Of a stretch of 64,000 nucleotides of DNA, positions 35,545 through 39,214 are shown piece after piece. Each line of letters begins with the position of its first letter. The stretch's first letter is position 1. Origin of the DNA: Bacteroidota bacterium. GTDB lineage: Bacteria > Bacteroidota > Bacteroidia > Chitinophagales > Chitinophagaceae. The notes below the pieces were generated by a model. The model was not told where the DNA came from. It was given only the letters and a program-made list of their open reading frames with translations, and did not search any database. The stretch is from positions 62,001 through 126,000 of the forward strand of contig JAFDXL010000007.1 of the NCBI GenBank assembly GCA_018267955.1, written 5' to 3'. Both the position numbers and the translations under genes were made by a program.

Positions 35545-36822
35545 CTACCACTCCGGGTAGAGCGGGAACAGCTTCATGAATTCATTCACTTCATTACGAA
35601 CTGCATTTATAACGCTTTCATCATCAGCGGCCATCAGCACCCTATCCAGCCAGTTGACGATCTGTGACATGTGCTCTTCTTTAAGTCCGCGTGTAGTGAT
35701 GGCAGGAACACCTATACGTATACCGGAAGTGATGAAAGGTGACTTATCATCAAAAGGCACCATATTCTTGTTAATAGTAATGTCTGCCTGTACCAGTATA
35801 TTCTCCGCCTTCTTACCGCTTATGTTCTTATTGCGCAGGTCTATCAGCAGCAGGTGATTATCCGTGCCTCCTGATACTATGTTGTAATTTTTCTCTGTAA
35901 GTTCTTTTGCAACCGCCTGCGCATTGCGTATTACCTGCGCGGTGTATTCACTGAACTTATCCTGCAAAATTTCGTAAAAAGCAACAGCTTTTGCTGCGAT
36001 CACATGCTCCAGCGGGCCGCCCTGTGTGCCGGGGAATACGGCCAGGTCTATCAGCTGGCTGGCCATTCTTGTTTCGCCCTTAGGGCCTTTGGCGCCCCAT
36101 GTGTTCTCAAAATCCTCCTTCATAAGGATAAGGCCACCGCGAGGGCCACGCAGCGTTTTGTGCGTAGTAGTAGTAACAAAATGGCAATGCTCGAAAGGAG
36201 AGTTGAGATGTTTCTTAGCGATGAGGCCGGCAGGGTGAGAGATATCTGCCATTACCAGCGCGCCAATCTTATCTGCAACGGCACGGATGCGGGCATAATC
36301 CCAATCGCGGCTGTAGGCAGATGCACCGCAGATGATAAGCTTTGGCTTATGCTCCAGCGCCTGCTTTTCCAGGTGATCATAATCTACCAGGCCATCTTCT
36401 TTGCGCACACCATAGTGTACTGCATTATATAACTTGCCGGAGAAGTTGACAGGAGAGCCGTGTGTAAGGTGGCCGCCCATGCTGAGGTCGAGGCCGAGGA
36501 TGGTATCGCCCGGTTGCAGGCATGCCAGCATTACGGCAGCATTGGCTTGCGCACCACTGTGCGGCTGTACATTGGCATAAGCTACGCCAAATATTTCCTT
36601 GGCACGGTCTATAGCCAGTTGCTCGCTCAGGTCTACCACTTCACAGCCGCCATAATAGCGCTTACCCGGGTAGCCCTCTGCATACTTATTGGTCATGACA
36701 CTACCCATAGCCTGCATTACCTGCTCGCTGGTAAAGTTTTCGGATGCTATGAGTTCCAGGCCGCGGCGCTGGCGTTCTAATTCTTCGTGTATGAGGCCGA
36801 ATATGGCTATATCGCGTTGCAT
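35545..36822 (-). CDS. glyA: Serine hydroxymethyltransferase
   Basis: 425 aa, full length. Family sequences: [54 protein letters not shown], and [14 protein letters not shown] with the PLP lysine K222. The C-terminus carries [18 protein letters not shown]. It interconverts serine and glycine while loading tetrahydrofolate with a one-carbon unit. Transcribed alone from the promoter at 36845-36876. Confidence 0.97.
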
Positions 36823-36844
36823 GTGGTGTTGATGAATTTGGCTG

Positions 36845-36876
36845 CAAAGGTAGGGGAATAAACAGGGGATTGCAAA
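36845..36876 (-). promoter_or_regulatory. Bacteroidota-type promoter for glyA
   Basis: Reading leftward: TTTG (36873-36876), 20 bp, TACCTTTG (36845-36852). The glyA ATG is 22 bp downstream. Both elements match the consensus. Confidence 0.75.
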
Positions 36877-36949
36877 GTGGGTGTGGAAAGCCTAGTTATG
36901 GATATTTACAGTATGTGTATAACTATTGGTAATATTTTCGACTTAAAAA

Positions 36950-36981
36950 TTGCTGTTGTTAATATTTTGATTATATATTTG
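36950..36981 (+). promoter_or_regulatory. Putative promoter of the retron-like cassette
   Basis: TTG at 36950-36952 and TATATTTG at 36974-36981 (perfect TAnnTTTG), 21 bp apart. A transcript would begin near 36988, about 30 nt before the first arm of the inverted repeat that bounds the candidate msr-msd. A nearer TTG at 36956 would give a 15-bp spacer, less typical. Confidence 0.6.
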
Positions 36982-36987
36982 CAATAG

Positions 36988-37306
36988 TTCTTTGACATGT
37001 CTGTGAATTATAAACTTAGTCTCTAATAGAAATTTCCGTTAGGTGCTTTAGCACAATCTCCTTAGTTGGTTTTAAGGAATACTTTGTCGTGTAGACGCTT
37101 TGCCGGTCGGTGCTGTTCACTATTGCAGTGTCCATGCCCCCACCCCTTCCCTTGTACCTATCCTTGCCCATCCTTATTTAATACTGTTTTCTTTTTGCGC
37201 AAGATGGGGAGAGGTAGAGCCGATAATCGATAAACTGCTTTAACGAAAGTTAAATGCCGAAAAATTAGAAAGTAGTCGTAATTACTTCTAATAGAGATTT
37301 TTTTTT
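36988..37306 (+). ncRNA. Candidate retron msr-msd non-coding RNA
   Basis: About 320 nt with no ORF, in front of a reverse-transcriptase gene cluster. Outer arms 37020-37031 (TCTCTAATAGAA) and 37286-37297 (TTCTAATAGAGA) pair at 11 of 12 positions, as a1/a2 repeats do. After the 5' arm come two short stem-loops like an msr: GTGC-TTTA-GCAC (37043-37054) and TCCTTA/TAAGGA with an 8-nt loop (37059-37078). The 3' part holds an imperfect long hairpin (37125-37129 with 37234-37238; 37155-37175 with 37201-37216) and a TTTAAC-GAAA-GTTAAA hairpin (37239-37254). Nine T follow the second arm. Folding was done by eye; ends are approximate. Confidence 0.6.
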
Positions 37307-37323
37307 AATTCAAATTAAGGTTT

Positions 37324-37590
37324 ATGAAAAAACAGACAACAGAACTCATTGAAGTTCTGCGGCAAATGCTGTCCAAGAACAGCGACTACTACTCTACTGA
37401 AGAGGTCACAAACTTAGAACTTGCTATTGAAGCTTTGCAAAGACTAAGTCAATACGAGTCTGATGTAGTAAACTCACGATCTGCTGGCAAGCAACCTGAC
37501 TGGGTTGAACTTACTGAGGTTACTTTGTGCATCATTAGATTTATGTTGGAACCTAGTGTTAGCAATTGGTTTAAAGATTTTTTTAACTAG
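37324..37590 (+). CDS. 88-aa protein of unknown function in the retron-like cassette
   Basis: Predicted mostly helical: TTELIEVLRQMLSKN, TEEVTNLELAIEALQRLSQY, then a Trp-containing second half (GKQPDWVELTEVTLCIIRFM) ending in SNWFKDFFN. No signal peptide, no Cys/His cluster, no known motif. It starts 18 bp after the T-run of the candidate ncRNA and ends 37 bp before the HTH gene, on the same strand. Codon use is A+T-rich like the two following genes and unlike glyA. Could be an accessory or regulatory part of the system, or an unrelated small gene. Confidence 0.65.
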   Translation: MKKQTTELIEVLRQMLSKNSDYYSTEEVTNLELAIEALQRLSQYESDVVNSRSAGKQPDWVELTEVTLCIIRFMLEPSVSNWFKDFFN

Positions 37591-37627
37591 TGACTTCTTC
37601 AGTTTTTTTACAGTTAAATAGCCTAAT

Positions 37628-37936
37628 ATGGATATCGGTTCCACAATTGAACTGCTTAGAAAAAGAAAAAACATTTCTCAGAAATCTTTGGCAGATTTAG
37701 CCGGCATTACCCAATCTTATTTGTCTCAGATAGAGGGAAATAAAAAAGACCCCAATATGAAAACGCTTCAAGATATATCTAATGCACTTGAGATCCCTTT
37801 GCCATTTCTCCTTTTGAATTCTATATCTATTGATGATGTGCCTACACAAAAACAGGATGCATTTAAGATTGTTATGCCGCTATTGAAATCTCTTTTATCG
37901 GGATATCTAAACGATGCTGACAATGATAAAGTCTAA
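37628..37936 (+). CDS. XRE/Cro-CI family helix-turn-helix protein
   Basis: 102 aa. The HTH spans about residues 5-60: IELLRKRKNISQKSLADLAG, ITQSYLSQIEGNKKDPNMKT, LQDISNALEIPLPFLL, a canonical five-helix XRE fold. The remaining ~40 residues are helical with no known effector domain. Its stop overlaps the start of the reverse transcriptase by 23 bp (or 14 bp if the second ATG is used), indicating translational coupling. In type VI retrons as described, a small HTH protein is the partner of the RT; here it could be a repressor of the cassette or the toxin-like effector. Confidence 0.88.
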   Translation: MDIGSTIELLRKRKNISQKSLADLAGITQSYLSQIEGNKKDPNMKTLQDISNALEIPLPFLLLNSISIDDVPTQKQDAFKIVMPLLKSLLSGYLNDADNDKV

Positions 37937-38831
37937 GAAGATATTTTCTTTGGTGTTAGGATATGAACTAAAAACAATCGATAATATAATCGAATGCTTA
38001 GAGGACGAACAAAAACGCGGTAAATATTACAATCCATATAAAGTAAAAAAATCAGGTGGCAAGTTTCGAGTGATTGCTCCCAGTCGAGGTGAACTGAAAA
38101 AAATACAAGCCAGAATACATGAGAACATCTTTAGCCATATTCAACTGCCGTTTTATGTAACGGGATCGCTAAAAAGAAGGAGTGGCGTTATTAATGGTAA
38201 AATTCATTCAGGGAAAAAATATCATTTCCAAACAGACTTAGTCAACTTTTTTGGCTTTGTATCATATCGAAATGTGCTAAAAGCATTGAAGATGCTAGGC
38301 TTTTCGCACGATGTTGCATTTTATATTACTAAGTTGACTACATATGATGGTCATTTACCGCAAGGGGTATGCACAAGTCCTTTCTTAGCAAATTTAGTTG
38401 GATTGAATATTGATGACGCTATGCTTGATTTTTGTAAATCTCGAAATATAACATACTCAAGATATGTTGATGACCTTACCTTTTCTAGCCAAAGTGATTT
38501 TAAGGATGAGTTGAAGATTTTTTTATCCGGCATTATTGCCCAAGGGTTCATTTATAGTTATAGAAAGACTAAGTATAAAATAGGCTCAATAGATGTAACC
38601 GGTACTAAGGTTACGAATGAAGGAATAAAAGGTACAGATAAACAGTATGGTCGAGCCCTTCTTATCGACACAAAATCATCTTCTTTCAAAGGTTTAGTTG
38701 GACATTTGGAATACGTTGAAGAGATTAATGATAAGTTTAATCTAACAACTTACCGTAATGAGAATATTTTTTTACGCTTTCCAACTCGTTTATTCCCTTA
38801 CATGAATTTTAAAAAGAAAGAATCAAAATAA
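37914..38831 (+). CDS. Retron-type reverse transcriptase
   Basis: 305 aa. RT motifs in order: RVIAPSRGELKKIQARI (RT1), a NGKIH motif at residues 94-98 in the place of the retron NAxxH, FQTDLVNFFGFVSY with the first catalytic Asp, LPQGVCTSPFLANLV (RT4), YSRYVDDLTFSS with YVDD at 184-187 (RT5), and DVTGTKVTNEGIK with the retron-specific VTG (about 228-230). No maturase or endonuclease domain follows. Together with the upstream structured RNA this supports a retron RT that would make msDNA from the adjacent ncRNA. Alternative ATG at 37923. Group II intron and DGR RTs are less likely because no maturase, variable repeat or template repeat is seen. Confidence 0.88.
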   Translation: MLTMIKSKKIFSLVLGYELKTIDNIIECLEDEQKRGKYYNPYKVKKSGGKFRVIAPSRGELKKIQARIHENIFSHIQLPFYVTGSLKRRSGVINGKIHSGKKYHFQTDLVNFFGFVSYRNVLKALKMLGFSHDVAFYITKLTTYDGHLPQGVCTSPFLANLVGLNIDDAMLDFCKSRNITYSRYVDDLTFSSQSDFKDELKIFLSGIIAQGFIYSYRKTKYKIGSIDVTGTKVTNEGIKGTDKQYGRALLIDTKSSSFKGLVGHLEYVEEINDKFNLTTYRNENIFLRFPTRLFPYMNFKKKESK

Positions 38832-38833
38832 TC

Positions 38834-39214
38834 CTACACCCCCTGCTTCGCCAGCTTGCTTAAAGTAAGCAGCACGCATTGCATTACACTGGCGATGGTG
38901 CCGATCATAGCATACCATAGGGATGCGAGGTTGAAGATGAGCATGGCTTTCCAACCCCATGGTTTGCCGGTGATGAAGCCGTAAGTGATATACAAACCGA
39001 CAAGGCCCCATGCTATAAACAGTACCTTCATAGGTGTAGACTCCGGATTGATACCTACTGCGGATACTACATTGCTCCATGGGCCAAGCTGTCCTGCATG
39101 TGTGCCGGATGTAGGACGTATATAATCGCCTGTGGTCAGCGCGTGTACGCCATCAAAGGTCATGTAGCCAAAATTGATAACCGCGAGCAGGATGATGATC
39201 CATTTAATAAACAT
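38834..39214 (-). CDS. Small four-TM membrane protein
   Basis: 126 aa from ATG at 39214 (MFIKWIIILLAVINFGYMTF). Helices at about residues 3-20, 60-80 and 88-115, and a lumenal Gly/Asn-rich loop (GTHAGQLGPWSNVVSAVGIN). It resembles DoxX-like or DUF-type small membrane proteins but I cannot name the family. It converges on the RT gene with 2 bp between the stops. Confidence 0.55.
   Translation of the reverse strand: MFIKWIIILLAVINFGYMTFDGVHALTTGDYIRPTSGTHAGQLGPWSNVVSAVGINPESTPMKVLFIAWGLVGLYITYGFITGKPWGWKAMLIFNLASLWYAMIGTIASVMQCVLLTLSKLAKQGV

Follow-up and report, generated by a model that had tools for sequence, protein, structure and literature searches.

The window analysed here, a 64,000-nucleotide stretch of Bacteroidota DNA, contains, between glyA and the gene for a small membrane protein, a block of genes that raises the question of whether its reverse transcriptase (RT) is part of a retron and, if so, which component of the cassette would act as the effector. 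The preliminary description of this DNA had placed a promoter, a structured untranslated RNA, an 88-aa protein gene, an XRE-family helix-turn-helix (HTH) gene and an RT gene in a co-directional, A+T-richer block at this site, and the block is confirmed with all of its parts in these places. On the + strand the order is a leader of approximately 340 nt, the 88-aa ORF, the XRE-HTH ORF and the RT ORF. Measured in steps of 500 bases, the G+C content of the block is mostly 0.33–0.39, versus 0.43–0.55 within approximately 3 kb on either side.

The limits of the cassette were defined by comparison with other genomes of the same genus. The nearest of these (L148) aligns by blastn only to positions 36362–36881 of the window and from 38835 on, with 93% and 86% identity in the two flanks. 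Furthermore, in six same-genus genomes only 47–51 bp separate the sequences that match glyA and the membrane-protein gene, and the RT is absent from the nine other same-genus genomes searched (E 1e-40). In the other eight same-genus genomes, the flanking genes are separated by 227, 255 and 1465 bp in three and lie on different contigs in two, while one of the two flanking genes has no match in the remaining three. The homology breaks at 36881/38835, the near-adjacency of the flanking genes in six genomes and the absence of the RT from nine together indicate that the cassette (approximately 1953 bp, positions 36882–38834, + strand) is an insertion, which starts approximately 90 bp 5' of the promoter and ends 3 bp past the RT stop codon. 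The glyA-side site is variable, as L148 carries a different, unrelated insert of 1.5 kb there, with REP-like repeats and a 150-aa ORF. The L148 insert also contains a 182-aa ORF that, judged by eye, resembles a REP-associated transposase.

The RT (37914–38831, + strand) matches the PADLOC family RT_VI with an E value of 1.3e-61 (206 bits versus 161 bits for the next family) and Pfam RVT_1 with an E value of 2.1e-13. Type VI is reportedly a class of retrons defined by Mestre et al. in 2020. Retron RTs carry the motifs NAxxH and VTG; the RT alignment contains NGKIH (with A replaced by G relative to NAxxH), DVTG and YVDD, and thus the motifs of a retron RT, with Asp108, Asp186 and Asp187 invariant. 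In a tree of 100 RTs built by a quick method, with SH-aLRT as the only support measure, the window RT pairs with that of L031 (SH-aLRT 99) inside a nine-row set of loci that encode a small protein (SP), an HTH protein and an RT in this order (SH-aLRT 96). This set lies within a larger one of 85 rows (SH-aLRT 97), of which 76 are SP-HTH-RT loci, placing the window RT among the type VI RTs accompanied by SP and HTH. Scans of viral contigs gave no match with the single protein and two distant matches with the alignment.

The XRE-family HTH protein (37628–37936, + strand) belongs to PADLOC HTH_VI (8.5e-26) and Pfam HTH_3 (7.7e-15), and its best-scoring solved relative is the restriction control protein C.BclI. 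As in type VI retrons, the HTH_VI gene adjoins the RT gene and overlaps its start. The 23-bp overlap given in the preliminary description holds when counted from the first ATG of the RT ORF; the in-frame ATG at 37923 is the start most like those of relatives, and the overlap is then 14 bp. Comparison of the neighbourhoods of relatives shows that both the SP-HTH-RT order and a structured leader are kept. In one scan of genome contigs (the best 80 of 241 relatives), this order was found in 72 of 80 loci; the other eight comprise five without a recognised HTH (among them L087 and L110, both truncated at the start of the contig), two without a recognised SP and one in which the RT extends beyond the contig. 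Across all fetched loci, SP is present in 76 of the 78 that bear an HTH gene, counted after setting aside 17 duplicates, two loci without an RT and 23 without an HTH. One of the relatives, given as Chitinophaga silvatica in a collection of named genomes, is a locus also carried by a genome of the host's own family, so that this family appears to be Chitinophagaceae. Taken together with the upstream RNA described below, the PADLOC assignments, the tree, the leaders of relatives and the predicted fold uphold the earlier identification of a type VI retron with an upstream ncRNA, and on this sequence evidence the window cassette is almost certainly a type VI retron.

The 88-aa protein (37324–37590, + strand) was previously regarded as an undescribed part. 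Alone, it matches the PADLOC family SP_VI weakly (0.017). When aligned with 13 relatives gathered by position, 13 of the 14 members, the window protein included, belong to SP_VI (counted at E values up to 0.1; best 2.8e-28). The profile of this family finds the window protein with an E value of 1.1e-21, a value to which the protein itself contributes as part of the profile. PMC8541194 describes type VI retrons as RTs accompanied by proteins that bind DNA and by small auxiliary proteins, and this description together with the SP_VI membership removes the claim of novelty. The window SP is far diverged, with 13–32% identity in an alignment with relatives. The SP starts were set by rule (nearest to 76 aa), except in four relatives and the window, where they were assigned manually. 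The predicted structure of SP has four helices (pLDDT 76); none of the 68 matches in a fold search reached an E value of 0.001 or better, and a search of PDB sequences with the SP profile returned mainly designed or unrelated helical proteins. The sole hydrophobic stretch is the C-terminal part, where helix hydropathy reaches a maximum of 1.13 over 19 residues, short of a clear transmembrane segment. The sequence and predicted helices suggest that SP may be a small toxin, possibly a membrane-active one.

The distribution of the two accessory genes bears on which of them would be the effector. An ORF of 65–77 aa lies directly 5' of the RT in seven relatives that lack the HTH gene (L013, L015, L021, L098, L099, L105 and L159), whereas L120 has neither an HTH gene nor a small ORF in this position. 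The small ORFs beside the RT in HTH-less relatives are basic in several cases, and L159 is a Bacteroides uniformis plasmid. As these relatives keep the small ORF (a predicted gene) beside the RT, SP rather than HTH is the more constant accessory part. It has to be considered that SP is instead an antitoxin or adaptor and that the HTH protein is the effector, acting by transcriptional killing. The better conservation of HTH than of SP between loci would fit such a role, but the seven relatives that retain the small ORF and have no HTH make it improbable, the least probable of the alternatives considered here. Consequently, SP is most likely the effector, restrained by the RT-msDNA complex, with the HTH protein as an accessory.

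The leader begins with a promoter-like element, TATATTTG (36974–36981, + strand), of the form TAnnTTTG, which we take to be a Bacteroidota-type -7 element. It is followed by the motif AGTTCTTTGA (36986–36995, + strand) near the transcript start, which corresponds to a motif, GTTC[TA]TTG, conserved in the leaders of relatives. This motif is present in 70 of 76 SP leaders, among them that of the window, compared with 1 of 71 control stretches taken downstream and 2 of 74 taken antisense; the leaders without it are those of L031 (cut at the contig end), L035, L062, L086, L095 and L100. Of 70 leaders, 67 have a loosely defined TAnnTTTG-like element 5' of the GTTCTTTG motif, and the succession of TATATTTG and AGTTCTTTGA is unique across both strands of the window. 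A simple scan for sigma-70 promoters and terminators gave no excess. The AGTTCTTTGA motif is presumably boxA-like, and its position directly after the -7 element suggests that it may serve in antitermination of the ncRNA.

The RNA that follows has the layout of a retron ncRNA. A putative a1 repeat, AGTCTCTAATAGAA (37018–37031, + strand), pairs with a putative a2 repeat, TTCTAATAGAGATT (37286–37299, + strand), and occupies a place comparable to that of a1 in relatives. Between them are msr hairpin 1 (GUGC-UUUA-GCAC followed by AA; 37043–37054, + strand), which is a covarying hairpin in relatives, msr hairpin 2 (CUCCUUAGUUGGUUUUAAGGAA; 37058–37079, + strand), which is present in both the MFE and centroid folds, and a putative msd, the template of the msDNA, whose limits (37083–37285, + strand) follow from its place between the msr hairpins and a2. 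The leader (37015–37305) folds better than 200 of 200 dinucleotide shuffles (z -2.79), with a closing a1/a2 duplex, a pair of small hairpins and a long hairpin in the msd; folded as DNA, the msd (37085–37290) is not beyond chance (z -1.0). The a1/a2 duplex of the window taken alone is weak, as 6 of 100 shuffles are as good, and in 32 of 70 leaders the duplex is matched by at most 2 of 100 shuffles. The a2 repeat runs into nine T residues (37298–37306), and eight T residues follow the a2 hairpin in L032; these runs could end the ncRNA transcript.

The same elements can be traced in relatives, where a1 lies upstream of the hairpin module and a2 lies shortly 5' of SP. Stems of four or more pairs with a trailing AA are found in 47 of 70 modules, compared with a mean of 12.3 and a maximum of 22 in shuffled sequences. 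In 23 rows (22 relatives and the window), which were picked from the 70 modules for one stem-loop geometry, a choice that favours pairing, 98.8% of cells are paired and in three of the four pairs both positions vary. Two covariance models of the msr were built without the window, R1 from 21 relatives and R2 from 19. Searched at E values up to 0.5 against 63 loci, R1 recovers its own 21 and places the msr at the expected leader position in 12 of the other 42 loci (six of the 12 below E 0.01), with four matches elsewhere. On the window, R1 does not recover the msr in its correct position and orientation, its best match (E 0.022) lying inside SP, and R2 ranks msr hairpin 1 first in the region with an E value of only 0.9. 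Rfam gave no match at gathering thresholds in the whole window and no retron match in the cassette region, where only a sub-threshold CRISPR repeat appeared. An ncRNA with a1/a2 repeats and msr hairpins, as in type VI retrons, thus precedes the protein genes at a place homologous in 70 leaders, and the window RNA appears to be a divergent member on which neither model reaches significance.

The best overall explanation, to which we assign a probability of roughly 60%, is that the cassette is an inserted type VI retron whose SP effector is restrained by RT and msDNA. The mechanistic part goes beyond the identity of the cassette, and we regard it as evenly balanced. First, the RT would use the msd in the leader as the template for msDNA, which would remain attached to the msr RNA. 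Next, RT and msDNA would restrain SP, at the protein level and/or by acting on SP expression through the leader that bears msr and msd. A phage that disturbs the msDNA or the RT would then free or switch on SP. Finally, SP, which is small and predicted to be helical and whose C-terminal helix is hydrophobic, would stop or kill the cell. In this scheme, the HTH protein would be an accessory regulator or partner and not the effector. The anti-phage role of the window cassette, which the preliminary description had proposed by analogy with studied retrons, is putative.

The leaders of relatives contain a further element that bears on how SP might be restrained. Two copies of a short sequence, N3-CARG, flank a2 in these leaders, 100–154 and 31–46 bases 5' of SP. 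The triplet N3 is the same in both copies in 49 of 54 loci, whereas permutation gave a mean of 8.2 and a maximum of 20 in 5000 trials. The 54 are those of 75 loci (among L033–L109, L116 and L119) with CARG in both search windows; a 76th locus, L031, was excluded from the 75 because its leader is cut at the contig end. Each of the three bases before CARG agrees in 91–98% of cases within a locus versus 33–73% across loci (54 loci). When the 75 loci are compared in fixed windows, the similarity of the two copies sums to 1282 for copies of the same locus versus 961 (sd 20) for pairing across loci (0 of 2000 as high). On the RT tree, the two copies require at least 20 and 22 changes, and only 23 jointly, and both copies change alike in 18 of 20 close pairs with differing upstream copies. 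The a2 repeat lies between the two copies in 23 of the 25 loci with a strong a1/a2 duplex, and in 44 of 54 loci a stem of five or more pairs comes after the second copy, versus a fraction of 0.33 in shuffles.

Since the upstream copy is situated between msr and a2, the msDNA should contain its complement, which could pair with the second copy, and the maintenance of the triplet match through approximately 20 changes on the RT tree suggests that the msDNA may pair with the leader of the SP mRNA. The proposal that follows is that msDNA regulates SP by Watson-Crick pairing between the product of the upstream N3-CARG, located in the msd, and the second copy just 5' of SP, silencing the SP mRNA by a block or by RNase H cutting, such that loss of the msDNA would turn the toxin on. 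The identity and co-change of the triplet and the location of a2 between the copies favour this proposal, as do repeats found outside the counted set. These include GAAGCAGG at -110 and -42 from the SP start in L160, AGTGCATTA at -94 and -35 in L158, and the 13-mer TTTTAGGCACGTG at -115 and -44 in L159, which is HTH-less, as are L021, L098 and L099, with repeats within about -94 to -115 and -35 to -44. Against it, the matched repeat is absent from the window, which fails the own-locus test, from L032 and from the visible part of L031, and no matched repeat was found in L013, L015 or L120. Likewise, CARG is missing from one or both search windows in 21 of 75 loci, some of which (e.g., L065 and L104) have repeats of other sequence, and the 9-mer of L105 lies at about -167 and -44, further upstream than usual. 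The repeat was not clearly seen in the phage loci MuM16-1, KS5 and P2_2H1. In the small clade of the window, the arrangement would have been replaced, as a2 and the T run stand where the second copy would be. Given the evidence on both sides, regulation of SP by msDNA pairing is put forward tentatively, as a reading of leader sequences with rather less than even odds. The broader statement that type VI retrons use msDNA as antisense DNA on the leader of the toxin mRNA, with the co-changing repeat marking template and target and the window clade being derived, its a2 and T run replacing the target, is offered a shade more cautiously still. A search for a further RNA, complementary to the repeat, as a third partner gave an unconvincing mean run of complementarity (6.08 versus 5.53 in 51 loci).

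The main rival to pairing of msDNA with the second copy is template switching, in which the RT would start on the copy near SP and jump to its counterpart 5' of a2. Such a jump would require short, exact direct repeats flanking a2, as the two copies are, by analogy with strand transfer in retroviruses. To our knowledge, no retron described to date requires a jump, as priming takes place from a branched guanosine adjacent to a1, and the repeat is absent in the window; consequently, template switching is considered unlikely. The repeats could also be operators through which the HTH protein represses the operon, since an HTH gene is present in most loci and its best solved relative is, as noted above, a control protein. 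However, 37 loci that share the recognition segment ITQTYLSQIE carry 10 types of N3, matched in 32 of the 37, and the HTH-less loci L021, L098, L099 and L159 keep the repeat. Both copies also fall inside the transcribed region, with median distances of 205 and 289 bases downstream of the GTTCTTTG motif (51 loci). One recognition segment combined with 10 triplets, together with the persistence of the repeat in HTH-less loci, makes HTH binding an even less likely cause of the matched repeat than template switching.

Comparison with known systems places the cassette within its class. The solved retrons, including Ec86, have different accessory proteins; the window RT is related by sequence to that of Ec86 (8qbk, 1.1e-21), and of the 15 PDB sequences listed for the window RT, 12 are named retron and none is labelled type VI. 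PMC8541194 presents p32-p33 of the Shewanella phage MuM16-1 as a candidate type VI element. Like the window, it has an HTH gene followed by an overlapping RT gene, whose product shares 28.5% identity with the window RT over 64% of the query. It differs from the window 5' of the HTH gene, where the only ORF of at least 50 aa on that strand is 57 aa long. No matched repeat was found at the usual places of this element. A literature search with little coverage of subscription papers found no paper on the mechanism of type VI retrons, and the accessible portions of PMC12548924 and PMC8934634 have no bearing on these retrons.

The window shares with type VI retrons the RT, HTH and SP families, the gene order of relatives and an upstream structured ncRNA, and differs from most relatives in a leader without the direct repeat and in a far diverged SP. 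The window cassette therefore adds another member to the type VI retrons, and its leader represents a separate sub-lineage. It is in the relatives, and not in the window, that the matched repeat occurs, and this repeat is the feature that merits further work. If the pairing proposal is true, msDNA would regulate a small toxin through base pairing, providing a role for msDNA in a retron that has no obvious effector enzyme.
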